Shown: positions 55,872 through 64,000 of the stretch, piece after piece
Layout: every line of letters begins with the position of its first letter
Position numbering within the stretch: position 1 is the first letter of the stretch
Assembly: GCA_944325155.1 (NCBI GenBank)
Contig: CALUYY010000002.1
Location: 124,001-188,000, forward strand
Direction of reading: 5' to 3'
DNA length: 64,000 nt
From: Candidatus Gastranaerophilales bacterium
GTDB lineage: Bacteria; Cyanobacteriota; Vampirovibrionia; Gastranaerophilales; Gastranaerophilaceae
Translations under genes and position numbers: made by a program
The notes under the pieces: model-generated
What the model was told of the DNA's origin: nothing
What the model saw: the letters and a program-made list of their open reading frames with translations, nothing else
The model's database searches: none

Positions 55872-58700
55872 ATGAGAATTTCTGCTGTCGAGCGCTTTAA
55901 TCCTCGGGTTGCCGTGCCCTTTAAAACAAATTTAGATACGGTATACAATAATACTTCAGGATTTAACGTTGTTTCATTGTCCGATTACAGGGCGGGAAAA
56001 ATTTCTTTTTCGGGAAATAAAAGAAATAACAATCAGGTAATATTTATCGGCGCAGAATCCGACCCCTATTCAAAAGCGGGCGGTGTCGGAACCGTTATGA
56101 AAGATTACAGAAATTTTACATCCCCTGAAAATGAAACGGAAATTCTTCCCTATTACGGCGGTGTTGTTAAAAACGGTGTTTTAGTCCCCGATAAAGATAA
56201 AGACGGTGATTATATAATTAAAACAAACGATGGTGATAAAAAACTCGATTTGGTTTCATCAAAAACTATTTCCTGGGGAAAAGCGCCTGCGAATAATATT
56301 ATGCTTTTTTCTCTTAAGGGGCAAAAAAACAAATCAACCTATTTTGTTTTTGCCGACTCAACGGCTTCCATGAAAAAGCCGTATCAGGGTGCATATTATT
56401 ATAGAACGGGTTCAATCGCCAAAACTAATGCATGGAACGGCGATCCTTACGCAATGTTTTCTAAAGCTGCCGTTGAATTTATTCCGGATGTCATAAAAGA
56501 TAAAGGCAACGGTTTTAACCCGGCAACCGTTGTTTGTTCAGATGCGCAGACCGCATATGTCCATGAATATATGGCAAAAAAAGCCGTTGATAATTCGCAA
56601 GATAACCCCTATGACGGAATTAAGCCTACATATGTCGGACATAATTTGGGACCGGGATATTGCGGTGAAACATCTATGCAGAATATGTTCGTAAATTTGG
56701 GAGCAACACCGGAACAGATTTCTTTAATTGAAAATGACCCCATATATAAAGACAATAAGTACGGCGACAGTTATTTTAAGCCCTTTGTTGAAAAAACTCT
56801 TGATGAAACGGGCACGGCAAGCGCCGTTATGATACCGATTCATTACACAAGCCCGAAAAGCGCAAACGGCGAAGGTTATTCAAAGGCATTTACCGTCGTT
56901 GCGGAGGATTATGCCGAAAGCCTTGCCAATAATCCTCAAGATGCCCATAACGTCCATTCATACATTAAACAATTATATGATATGGGAAGATTTCAAGGTA
57001 TATTAAATCCTCTGGAGGATCCTTCCGTTGATTCAACCAAACCTCTTCCCAATAAAAGATATAACGAAAATTGTATTGACTTTGATGGAACACCCTATCC
57101 CGCATTTAAAACTTATCCTGCTAACCCTTCATATAAGGAAATGCGCGAAATTAAAAATTATAACAAATTAAACCTGCTTAAGCGAATAACTGCGCAGGAT
57201 AACACTATTTTAACGGGAGACCCCAAAAGAAATGCAAAAATCAATCCCGAAGCTCCCAAAAATTCTGCCTGCCCGCCCGTGAGACCCGATTTAATCAATT
57301 TAATCGAAACAGGCCATGGTGATGATGTTCCTCTTTATGTAAGCTGGGGAAGAGCTGATACGCAAAAGGGCCATAATATTACGCTTGATGCCTTTGAAAA
57401 ATTCGCAAAAACAAAGGAAGGCAAAAATGCTATATTAATTTTGGGTACGGGACTTGATAACAGTGAAGAATCAAACCTTATCAGAGAAAAGCTTGAACAA
57501 ATGCTCTCTGATGATGAACTCAAAGGAAGAATTATTCATATTGACGGCTGGGCGCCTGCCTATGCCATGGCAAGCGCAGCGGATGCCGCCATATTCTCTT
57601 CCCGTTTTGAACCTTGCGGACTTACCGACCTTGAAGCAATGAAATATTATTGCACTCCGATTGTAACCAATACTCAAGGTTTTAAACAAAAAAACTTTGA
57701 CCCGAGAGTTGAATCCGAAAAAGACAAAGCAACATCATATAAAACAAAACATGAATACAATCTCAAATCTTCCCAAATTGAACCCGTAATTCAGGCATAC
57801 GTCAACGGCGATAATAAAGCGCTTAGTGCCGTTAAAAAAGAATACGGTGCATTTTATTCAACATCAAAGGACGGAAGCAAATACTTTGACGATACCGTAT
57901 TTAAGACATTTGCGGATAAGTATGCTAAATTTATAAAAGATAAAGAAGAATATTATATAAATACGGATGGCGAGCTTCCCGTTGACTACGACGATTGGGA
58001 TGAATTGTCCAAAGATTATAATTTTAAATTCAAAGGTTTTGCAAGAGAATTTAAAGATTCAATTTTATCTCAAGAAATTTCAAATGCGATTTTTGCACAG
58101 GCAACGGCATCAAAAGAAGAAAAAGAGCTAATATTTAATAACTTGAAGAATTTAAAAACAGGCTGGAGAGATAATTCAACCCTTCATCCCGATTCGGGCA
58201 AATCTACCTATGAATTGTATAAAGAAATCCACCTTGACCCTGAATATTCAAAACCCTCAAAGTATGATTTGTTGGGTGCGGATGATGAATTTGTCGAAAA
58301 TACGATTGAAAAAAGGCAGTCTAAAGATTTTAAAGAAAGAAGCCTTGTATATTTGACCGGTGCTCTGGCGGGAATCGGCGCAATTATTGCAAACAGGACC
58401 AAAGATACAAAATTTAAAGACGCAACAAAGGAATTTGAAGGTCAAATAAGAACGCTTAAATATGACCTTGCGCAGCAGGCATTAAAATATAAAAAGTATA
58501 TGGCGCTGACCGGAATCTTATCGGCTGCGGCAGCTGCCGTAATTACAGCACTCGGTTTCAGACACTATATTAATTCAAAAACAACTAAAGATGAGCATAT
58601 TTTAGTGTTGCCAAAAAAGCCGAATGATAAAAATGATGTAGTCAATCCAAAACTTTCATTTTCAATGAGCGAATTTAAAAATAACCTGAATAAAAGCTAA
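55872..58700 (+). CDS. Glycogen/starch-synthase-like protein with N-terminal extension and membrane tail
   Basis: A 942-residue protein about twice the usual length. Residues 1-55 are a variable extension with the motif ISFSG (44-48). The GT5 domain follows: VIFIGAESDPYSKAGGVGTVMKDY with K68-x-GG (substrate Lys), YVGHNLGPGY, VSWGRADTQKGHNITLDAF, and the active-site EPCGLTDLE (E580, E588). It would add glucose from ADP- or UDP-glucose to alpha-glucan. Residues 600-800 are an unusual helical extension. Two hydrophobic helices near 825-840 and 877-897 tether the end to a membrane. It is isolated and has no glycogen-pathway neighbours. Catalysis is likely but the acceptor is uncertain. Confidence 0.85.
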   Translation: MRISAVERFNPRVAVPFKTNLDTVYNNTSGFNVVSLSDYRAGKISFSGNKRNNNQVIFIGAESDPYSKAGGVGTVMKDYRNFTSPENETEILPYYGGVVKNGVLVPDKDKDGDYIIKTNDGDKKLDLVSSKTISWGKAPANNIMLFSLKGQKNKSTYFVFADSTASMKKPYQGAYYYRTGSIAKTNAWNGDPYAMFSKAAVEFIPDVIKDKGNGFNPATVVCSDAQTAYVHEYMAKKAVDNSQDNPYDGIKPTYVGHNLGPGYCGETSMQNMFVNLGATPEQISLIENDPIYKDNKYGDSYFKPFVEKTLDETGTASAVMIPIHYTSPKSANGEGYSKAFTVVAEDYAESLANNPQDAHNVHSYIKQLYDMGRFQGILNPLEDPSVDSTKPLPNKRYNENCIDFDGTPYPAFKTYPANPSYKEMREIKNYNKLNLLKRITAQDNTILTGDPKRNAKINPEAPKNSACPPVRPDLINLIETGHGDDVPLYVSWGRADTQKGHNITLDAFEKFAKTKEGKNAILILGTGLDNSEESNLIREKLEQMLSDDELKGRIIHIDGWAPAYAMASAADAAIFSSRFEPCGLTDLEAMKYYCTPIVTNTQGFKQKNFDPRVESEKDKATSYKTKHEYNLKSSQIEPVIQAYVNGDNKALSAVKKEYGAFYSTSKDGSKYFDDTVFKTFADKYAKFIKDKEEYYINTDGELPVDYDDWDELSKDYNFKFKGFAREFKDSILSQEISNAIFAQATASKEEKELIFNNLKNLKTGWRDNSTLHPDSGKSTYELYKEIHLDPEYSKPSKYDLLGADDEFVENTIEKRQSKDFKERSLVYLTGALAGIGAIIANRTKDTKFKDATKEFEGQIRTLKYDLAQQALKYKKYMALTGILSAAAAAVITALGFRHYINSKTTKDEHILVLPKKPNDKNDVVNPKLSFSMSEFKNNLNKS

Positions 58701-61779: not shown

Positions 61780-64000
61780 ATGAAATTTGTTTCATCATTT
61801 AATGAAAACCCGGACCATATTAACGGGCTAAAACAAAATGGTCCCGTTAACAACGGTTCTTATACCCCCAGTTATTTATCTAAAGATTCCAAAACGGACG
61901 AAGTATCATTTACGGGTTCCGATAATAAACATAAAAAATTAAACCCTTTTAAGGCGTTTGTCATTTCTCTGGCTGCCGCATTAGGTATATCGGGCTGCGC
62001 TGCACCCGTTGCAAACACAAATGCAGGTTCGGTTGATACCAATCAGCCTGCCATAACAGCCGAAGCAAATGATAATACAAATGACGCTTTAGCGGTTGAT
62101 GCGTCAGTCGGTATTGAACTTTTCCAAAATAATGAAAATATTCCCGTTGTCAGTGTTATGTCGACAACATCCGAAGGAACAAACAGAGTTTTCCCGAATA
62201 TACACTTTGAAACCGCTACGGTTGATATTGTGCACAATTCCTCAAACGAAGTTGATGAATGCGAAACCTTGCTTGAATTAATCAATAAACAATATGTTGA
62301 ACCTTTTCTTACTAACGGCGAATCTCCCGAGCCTTTGGGAGAGGACGAGATTAACCAGATTGCACGAGAAATTATCGAAACCAACCCCGAACTTCAAAAG
62401 GCAATTCAAGATAAATATAAATTGGGTTCAGAAGAAGATTCCTGGATGATGATCGATAATTTTGACGAACTTCTGAATACAAATTTATATGATGAATTTG
62501 GCATAACGCAGCTTGAAGCACCCGATCATGTTGAAATTCACGGCATTTCAAGTAAATCGCCTTTATACAACAAAACGGAATCATCTACAAAAATTTATTC
62601 AACCAAAAATGATACCGTAACATTGGATAATTCAATTACAAACCTTGATGAATTATATGCGGCTTTTGCTTCACAATATCAAGATATTGAAGGAAACAAT
62701 GCCGATACAACCGCCGCTTCAATTGCCACATGGCTTGCAATTAAAGATAACCAGTATAATGAAGATATCTTCGGCGATTTAATAAATAACGACAGCGACA
62801 GAACGGACACGGTTCTTCTTGAAATTTTAAAAGGTCTTAATGACGGTGAAACAATCGAGCTTACGCTTCCTTCAGCATTCGGTGTTAATCTGATGGCAAG
62901 CGGAAAACCTCTTGAATCTGTTTCGCCGGATGATGCATATCATATTGTTCATGAAATGTCGCCTACGGAATTATCCTTTACACTTGATGCTGATACAAAA
63001 GTTACCGATGATTCCCAGACTCAAGGCGTATATGACTTTATAGACATTCTTACATACTATCATGATCCGGATACGGGTGAGTTACTGGCTCAAAAAGTAG
63101 AAAAAGAAGATGCGGAAGGAAACACGTATTATGAATTCCAATTCAATCAAGATGTTCCCGATTTAAATGCTAAAGCATATTCTTTATACGAACAGTTTGC
63201 ATATGACCACCTTGATTTCTTTGCCGCAACTCAGGAAATTGATATGGACGGCGAAGTAAAAGAGTATGAATTCGGCGTATTTGATGTAGCCGAAGGCTAT
63301 GAAGACACGGTTAGAGAACTTCTGGCAGACGGTAATTACGATGAAGCTAAAAATTACCTTGTATTTAATCTTGATAAATTTAAAGCAGGTTCTTTCTATG
63401 ATGAAGACGGTAATTTAAAAACAGACGGCGATCTTACAATGACAATGGAGCAGTACTTCTATGTAAATGACGGCGAAGGCGAACATGTTGATATGGATTT
63501 ACCCGTTGTTGATAAAGATGACCCCGATGTAGACGACGATACGCCGCCCATAGATGATGACACAACAATAGACGATGATACAACCATAGATGATGATTCA
63601 GACATTGATGATGATACCGATGTTGACGATGACACCGATATAGATGATGATTCAGACATTGATGATGACTCGGATATAGATGATGATTCAGACATTGATG
63701 ATGACTCAGATATAGATGATGACTCGGATATAGATGATGATTCAGACATTGATGATGACTCGGATATAGATGATGATTCAGACATTGATGATGACTCGGA
63801 TATAGATGATGATTCAGACATTGATGATGACTCAGACATTGACGACGATACACCGCCTGTTGATGACGACTCTGATGACGATGATAATCCGAACCCTGAT
63901 ATCGACGATGACAGCGATATAGATGATGATACACCGGTTGATGACGATACCCCTGTTGATGATGACACTCCTGTGGACGATGATACACCGGTTGATGACG
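61780..64000 (+). CDS. Large acidic envelope protein with Asp-rich repeats (3' end beyond window)
   Basis: At least 740 residues. Residues 1-46 are polar and end in VSFTG (42-46). A hydrophobic segment at about 55-73 ends in LGISGC (Cys 73), a possible lipobox in an unusually late position. Then come about 510 residues without known domain, and from about 585 the repeat (S/T)-D-(I/V)-D-D-D runs to the window edge. GGAG precedes ATG 61780. The frame is open without stop to 64000. It is probably a surface lipoprotein or a secreted anchor; the repeats could bind calcium. The true length is unknown. Confidence 0.8.
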   Translation, partial: MKFVSSFNENPDHINGLKQNGPVNNGSYTPSYLSKDSKTDEVSFTGSDNKHKKLNPFKAFVISLAAALGISGCAAPVANTNAGSVDTNQPAITAEANDNTNDALAVDASVGIELFQNNENIPVVSVMSTTSEGTNRVFPNIHFETATVDIVHNSSNEVDECETLLELINKQYVEPFLTNGESPEPLGEDEINQIAREIIETNPELQKAIQDKYKLGSEEDSWMMIDNFDELLNTNLYDEFGITQLEAPDHVEIHGISSKSPLYNKTESSTKIYSTKNDTVTLDNSITNLDELYAAFASQYQDIEGNNADTTAASIATWLAIKDNQYNEDIFGDLINNDSDRTDTVLLEILKGLNDGETIELTLPSAFGVNLMASGKPLESVSPDDAYHIVHEMSPTELSFTLDADTKVTDDSQTQGVYDFIDILTYYHDPDTGELLAQKVEKEDAEGNTYYEFQFNQDVPDLNAKAYSLYEQFAYDHLDFFAATQEIDMDGEVKEYEFGVFDVAEGYEDTVRELLADGNYDEAKNYLVFNLDKFKAGSFYDEDGNLKTDGDLTMTMEQYFYVNDGEGEHVDMDLPVVDKDDPDVDDDTPPIDDDTTIDDDTTIDDDSDIDDDTDVDDDTDIDDDSDIDDDSDIDDDSDIDDDSDIDDDSDIDDDSDIDDDSDIDDDSDIDDDSDIDDDSDIDDDSDIDDDTPPVDDDSDDDDNPNPDIDDDSDIDDDTPVDDDTPVDDDTPVDDDTPVDD
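63636..63843. repeat. Asp-rich coding minisatellite, 18-bp unit with 36-bp higher order
   Basis: Units encoding D-I-D-D-D-S recur in frame. Synonymous and near-synonymous changes (GATATAGATGATGATTCA versus GACATTGATGATGACTCG) alternate to give a 36-base period. Looser units extend from about 63545 to the window end. A tract like this is prone to length change. Confidence 0.85.

Follow-up and report, generated by a model that had tools for sequence, protein, structure and literature searches.

A two-part N-terminal leader on unrelated proteins of the Gastranaerophilales, and a type III export apparatus that might read it

A shared N-terminal signature marks many proteins of the Gastranaerophilales, the non-photosynthetic gut relatives of the cyanobacteria, and it is real and order-wide. 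Its starting point was a 64,000-nucleotide stretch of a Candidatus Gastranaerophilales genome (GenBank assembly GCA_944325155.1, contig CALUYY010000002.1, positions 124,001 to 188,000; hereafter the window). There, a sequence-only reading had noted ISFSG at residues 44-48 of a glycogen-synthase-like protein (starting at 55872) and VSFTG at residues 42-46 of an acidic protein (starting at 61780); both are present in the open reading frames (ORFs). This motif constitutes one half of the signature. The leader that bears it is probably a sorting signal. The best single guess for the whole chain, given a probability of about 0.4, is that this sorting leader is read by a non-flagellar type III export apparatus.

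The signature joins two short elements: the start element, M-[KRQN]-[IV]-x-x-[IV]; and the core element, [VIP]-[SN]-F-(x)-G, after which the folded protein begins. A linker of roughly 2 to 65 residues separates them. It is rich in Asn (enriched 3.0-fold), Gln (2.0-fold), Ser (1.8-fold), Pro (1.6-fold), and Thr (1.5-fold), and poor in Glu (0.28-fold), Asp (0.51-fold), and Leu (0.56-fold). Within the order the two elements occur together: 23 of 117 proteins that start with M[KRQN][IV] contain a core, versus 53 of 1539 without that start (Fisher p = 3e-10). No such association was found in the outgroups (p = 0.33). The [VI]SF[ST]G pattern originally put forward is enriched but too narrow, being a special case of the broader core and half of the bipartite whole. 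The accompanying claim of a fixed position fails: cores lie at residues 8-76 overall; relatives of the glycogen-synthase-like protein have them at 31-76, other proteins from residue 8 on. Core starts range from residue 8 to 64, and about half fall below residue 20.

The source genome is a metagenome-assembled genome of 1.88 Mb. Some 40% of it was sampled for ORFs, namely the window itself plus roughly 700 kb in separate stretches (L-numbered), together holding 711 ORFs. For comparison, ORFs were also called in 15 other members of the order, in 8 genomes from sister families of the same class, and in 4 from other classes of the phylum; f1, f6, f7, f9, f14, and f15 label the families of the genomes sampled. 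ORFs were called with a simple home-made script, and genome-wide fractions are extrapolated from these samples.

Exact matches to [VI]SF[ST]G were counted in residues 2-80, with the expectation drawn from the rest of each protein. The source genome contains 4 (seed included) versus 0.3 expected; the other order genomes, 3 versus 0.0; and the sampled sister orders and photosynthetic cyanobacteria, 0. When gapped patterns were enumerated without bias in a reduced alphabet, V-S-F-x-G (27 versus 6.1) ranked among the strongest at the N-terminus, together with V-x-F-S-G (32 versus 8.9) and V-x-F-K-G (22 versus 6.1); the other top patterns were signal-peptide patterns and Cys motifs. A bipartite scanner, whose score combines start, composition, and core and whose null is internal windows, identified 38 proteins in the source genome (null, 3.9), 30 in other f1 genomes (null, 1.3), and 40 in f6/f7 (null, 1.7), its training sequences having come partly from these genomes. 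Outgroups were at the null (9 versus 8.6). When trained solely on other genomes, the scanner still recovered 31 leaders in the source genome, versus 5.2 expected, and nothing clear above the null in outgroups. By extrapolation from the home-made ORF calls, about 4-5% of ORFs in the source genome, and about 9% in f6/f7, bear the leader. Leader genes form 17 neighbouring pairs along the chromosome, versus 16.0 expected (p = 0.41); they are scattered, and so do not represent a single operon or island. These counts bear out the proposal of a lineage-specific leader common to proteins that are otherwise unrelated: the order is enriched for it, and the sampled sister lineages lack it.

Low-complexity N-termini rich in Asn and Ser, or miscalled starts, might in principle generate such matches; the leaders are indeed biased in composition, and the ORF caller is simple. 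However, shuffled N-termini yield just 0.14 (source genome) and 0.29 (rest of the order) exact motifs, against 4 and 3, and decoys with Phe or Gly swapped for other residues give 3-16 matches in f1, against 29 for the true motif. The starts themselves appear genuine: a Shine-Dalgarno match of at least 4 bases precedes 71% of leader-positive starts, versus 15% of internal in-frame ATGs. With the held-out scanner, the outgroups at the null, and a Phe that is invariant in homologues, these results lead us to reject chance and miscalled starts as highly improbable. Both window leaders are translated, since Shine-Dalgarno-like sequences (AGGTGA/AGGAG) lie upstream of both starts and such sequences are enriched at leader-positive starts generally.

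Homologues reveal which leader residues are constrained. Nearly all inspected relatives of the glycogen-synthase-like protein retain xSF(x)G, embedded in otherwise dissimilar leaders. In an alignment of 17 homologues, Phe46 is, besides Met1, the sole invariant residue before Ala61; Ser45 is present in 15 of 17 and Gly48 in 13 of 17, and most leader columns show 2-3 bits of entropy. The leader is thus as poorly conserved outside the motif as first described. In the GlgB-like family, SFG stays immediately before the domain while the leaders shrink from 53 residues down to MRIEKVGMTPLSFG, the shortest still holding both halves of the signature. GlgC-like orthologues of the same genus retain an SFTG copy, and the more distant L194 is without it. 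In the AlphaFold model of the glycogen-synthase-like protein, the predicted local distance difference test (pLDDT) score is below 50 for residues 1-48, and the confident domain begins at residue 52; the leader is predicted to be disordered up to the motif.

A motif placed exactly at the border between leader and domain, with a Gly beside the Phe that could serve as a cleavage site, might instead reflect processing or translation: a maturation protease site, an N-degron, or a favoured start context. This is improbable, as it leaves unexplained both the two-part signature and why only some of the paralogous enzymes carry it.

Leader carriers are mostly unrelated to one another, and many have no Pfam match. 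The recognizable ones include GlgA-like proteins, GlgB-like alpha-amylase/CBM48 proteins, and GlgC-like nucleotidyltransferases; GH77 glucanotransferases; phosphoribosyl pyrophosphate (PRPP) synthetase; RNase T exonuclease; Ser/Thr-kinase-like proteins; a sugar-phosphatase-like protein; amidohydrolases; and an AAA/M41 protease. Several of these enzymes have weaker cores, such as SFTS or LTFTR. Tagged paralogues of GlgC, GlgB, PRPP synthetase, and GH77 lie at L033:2073-4136 (minus strand), L129:647-3052 (minus strand), and L021:8987-13173 (plus strand). The source genome also encodes a leaderless GlgA (G000:C3:171401) and, judging by sequence, apparently a leaderless PRPP synthetase (L036:17447). 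The tagged paralogues suggest that glycogen and nucleotide enzymes exist in a second set bearing the leader.

Two arrangements show the leader in other settings. A 635-residue protein (L031:6143-8047, plus strand) has an N-terminal ISFTG and two more copies, ISFTG and PSFTG, within a polar linker further inside the protein; the motif can thus be repeated. In another genome (G045, L139:4029-5887, minus strand), four small paralogues in a row, which start with MLNSINNxSPSFGA or MRTESLSFGA, form a locally expanded group of leader genes.

The main rival to an export signal is a docking tag, in which a Phe-Gly short linear motif on a floppy tail binds a cytosolic hub: a scaffold, shell, condensate, or membrane platform. 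The hub would gather a second complement of glycogen, nucleotide, and regulatory enzymes, all inside the cell. Enzymes that depend on ATP or nucleotide sugars suit the cytosol; leaderless second copies of GlgA, and apparently of PRPP synthetase, fit as well. Very short leaders suffice, their spacing is unconstrained, and the motif is repeatable (internal copies in L023 as well as L031), all of which a docking motif would accommodate. Nevertheless, no hub or shell protein has come to light, though no search was aimed at one, and in the order the core is tied to a start signature that a docking motif does not need. We consider this rival possible but somewhat unlikely.

Every one of the 57 Gastranaerophilales genomes searched encodes an FlhA-family gate protein and FliP. 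Flagellin is absent from 26 of the 57, including all 9 of the source genome's own genus; flagellin-bearing genomes of the order usually have a second FlhA and a second FliP. In the source genome, the export apparatus genes (L196:9758-16581, L036:4990-9124, and L026:13529-14872, all minus strand) include one operon for SLT, FliE, FliF, a FliG-like protein, FliH, and FlhA, and another for FliP, FliQ, FliR, and a FliN-type protein. Its FliI shares 78% identity with the FliI of another family. Rod-type proteins are kept; this genome lacks the P-ring protein FlgI. A type III signal calls for a cognate apparatus, and FlhA, FliP/Q/R, FliF, FliH, FliI, and FliE are all present. Nearly all order genomes also encode a soluble protein of about 480-505 residues, in which the FlhA cytoplasmic domain follows an N-terminal part unlike that of FlhA (L198:9966-11414, plus strand, and equivalents in f1-f7 genomes); this paralogue was not seen in the f9, f14, and f15 genomes sampled. 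One leader gene (L036:2346-4982) adjoins FliR2, and another (L202:12212-12877) adjoins FlhA2, an adjacency suggestive of a type III route.

These observations frame a proposal. The leader would mark about 4-10% of the proteome for a common destination or partner, and the proteins so marked would often be second copies of metabolic enzymes. Its reader would be the non-flagellar type III apparatus that every order genome searched has retained. Tagged proteins would leave the cytoplasm without Sec, by analogy with the export of glycogen enzymes by Chlamydia. In being rich in N, Q, S, P, and T and poor in E and L, the leader resembles known type III signals. A bolder version, in which the leader is the export code of an order-universal non-flagellar type III system and the soluble FlhA-C paralogue is the leader receptor, is unlikely.

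Several points weigh against the type III proposal. The flagellar FxxxPhi pattern is lacking: position +4 from the core Phe is hydrophobic in 26% of cases, versus a background of 38%. Nor is there a critical spacing between the two elements, as cores start at residues 8-64, many of them at 8-16, which is nearer the N-terminus than in early flagellar subunits. An AAA protease and enzymes as large as 1660 residues are ill suited to type III export. The adjacency of leader genes to type III genes was noted post hoc and in few cases, and the source genome's apparatus inventory was drawn up without a whole-genome look for FlhB. Families f9 and f14 have the second FlhA, yet none of their 122 sampled proteins carries a leader; the apparatus therefore does not require the leader, and the argument from a shared distribution of the two is weakened. 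Finally, a lipobox-like segment follows the leader of the acidic protein, which points to Sec/Lgt, a different route. The probability given above for the type III route takes account of these limits and of the docking motif, which explains short leaders and ATP-dependent cargo equally well.

That segment comprises a Lys-rich stretch, a hydrophobic segment (about residues 56-72 by hydropathy), and a lipobox-like LGISGC (Cys73), encoded directly after the leader (61927..61998, plus strand). On sequence features, it may be a lipoprotein signal set back from the start. Might the leader then be the extended n-region of a variant Sec, lipoprotein, or surface-anchoring signal that delivers proteins to the envelope? 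The acidic protein is the case in favour, but a hydrophobic segment in the first 45 residues occurs in 0 of 62 leader proteins versus 19% of others (a score that itself partly selects polar leaders), and no other protein combining the leader with a late lipobox was found in the sample. We regard such a variant as quite unlikely.

The acidic protein itself runs off the window (61780..64000+, plus strand; open frame of 1144 residues). Its leader, residues 1-46 (MKFVSSF...DEVSFTG), spans 61780..61917, with AGGAG upstream of the start, and the VSFTG motif spans 61903..61917. No Pfam domain exceeds its curated cut-off in this protein; no match was found in a draw of 117 class genomes besides its own; and a search for a relative of solved structure found none. 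Its long DDD(S/T)DIDDD repeat (63434-64000) resembles Sdr-type stalks, and matches to SdrC/SdrD are weak.

The glycogen/starch-synthase-like protein (55872..58700, plus strand; 942 residues) combines a GT5 domain with a GT4-type C-lobe (Pfam Glyco_transf_5 and Glycos_transf_1) and has C-terminal hydrophobic segments. Its leader, residues 1-48 (MRISAVERF...KISFSG), is encoded at 55872..56015, with columns highly variable between homologues, and the ISFSG motif at 56001..56015. The GT5 catalytic features KxGG and E-x7-E are both present, as conserved KAGG and EPCGLTDLE. The AlphaFold model matches plant/cyanobacterial starch synthases as well as E. coli glycogen synthase, with fold matches to 2qzs and 6gne. 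The match to the GlgA family model TIGR02095 is partial and scores 96.1 bits against a cut-off of 328.45, which marks the protein as a divergent paralogue.

How does the leader compare with known signals? Early flagellar subunits of Salmonella, FlgD and FliK, carry an N-terminal hydrophobic signal plus a gate-recognition motif (GRM), at residues 36-40 in FlgD (PMC8983047). Like these, the leader is an unfolded N-terminus that carries a short hydrophobic element at residues 2-6 and a second short element downstream. Unlike these, its core is [SN]F(x)G rather than FxxxPhi, its spacing is unconstrained and often short, and its carriers are soluble enzymes rather than rod or hook subunits.

In Chlamydia, glycogen enzymes are exported with N-terminal type III signals (PMC3722199, PMC4829429), and chlamydial GlgC failed a secretion test (PMC4829429). 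The likeness lies in glycogen-pathway enzymes (GlgA, GlgB, and others) bearing a non-Sec N-terminal signal. There are also differences: GlgC-like proteins of the Gastranaerophilales are tagged too; a leaderless GlgA coexists; export of the tagged proteins is a proposal; and no eukaryotic host cell is known.

Two more distant comparisons involve tags of other kinds. PEXEL and RXLR are eukaryotic host-targeting motifs downstream of an endoplasmic reticulum (ER) signal peptide. They too are short motifs past the start, in variable leaders, on many unrelated proteins of one lineage; unlike the present leader, they are eukaryotic, stand behind an ER signal peptide, and are unrelated in sequence. 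Encapsulin and microcompartment cargo-loading peptides are short terminal peptides on disordered linkers that recruit enzymes, and share with the leader the terminal tag, the disordered linker, and the enzymatic cargo. Their sequence differs, and they often lie at the other terminus. The leader cannot at present be filed with any known signal family: GRM-type flagellar and Sec signals each fail on a tested feature, and it may belong to the type III signals in the general sense.

The signature is apparently undescribed, as the sequence-only reading had supposed: the literature searched holds no Gastranaerophilales N-terminal motif, and no Pfam or NCBIfam model covering it was found. Partial flagellar gene sets have been noted in the order (PMC5877343), and may represent this same type III system; no Gastranaerophilales type III secretion system was found described in the literature searched.

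The Gastranaerophilales are widespread, mostly uncultured gut residents, and a sequence tag on about one in twenty of their proteins supplies a ready list of proteins with a common destination. On the bolder, unlikely version, in which the leader is an order-universal export code, about 80-180 proteins per bacterium, including a whole glycogen-building pathway, would be delivered outside the cytoplasm, possibly into another cell. The tag brings two questions within reach of a test: what role the retained partial flagellar sets play in non-flagellated members; and for what reason the cells carry glycogen and nucleotide enzymes in tagged second copies.
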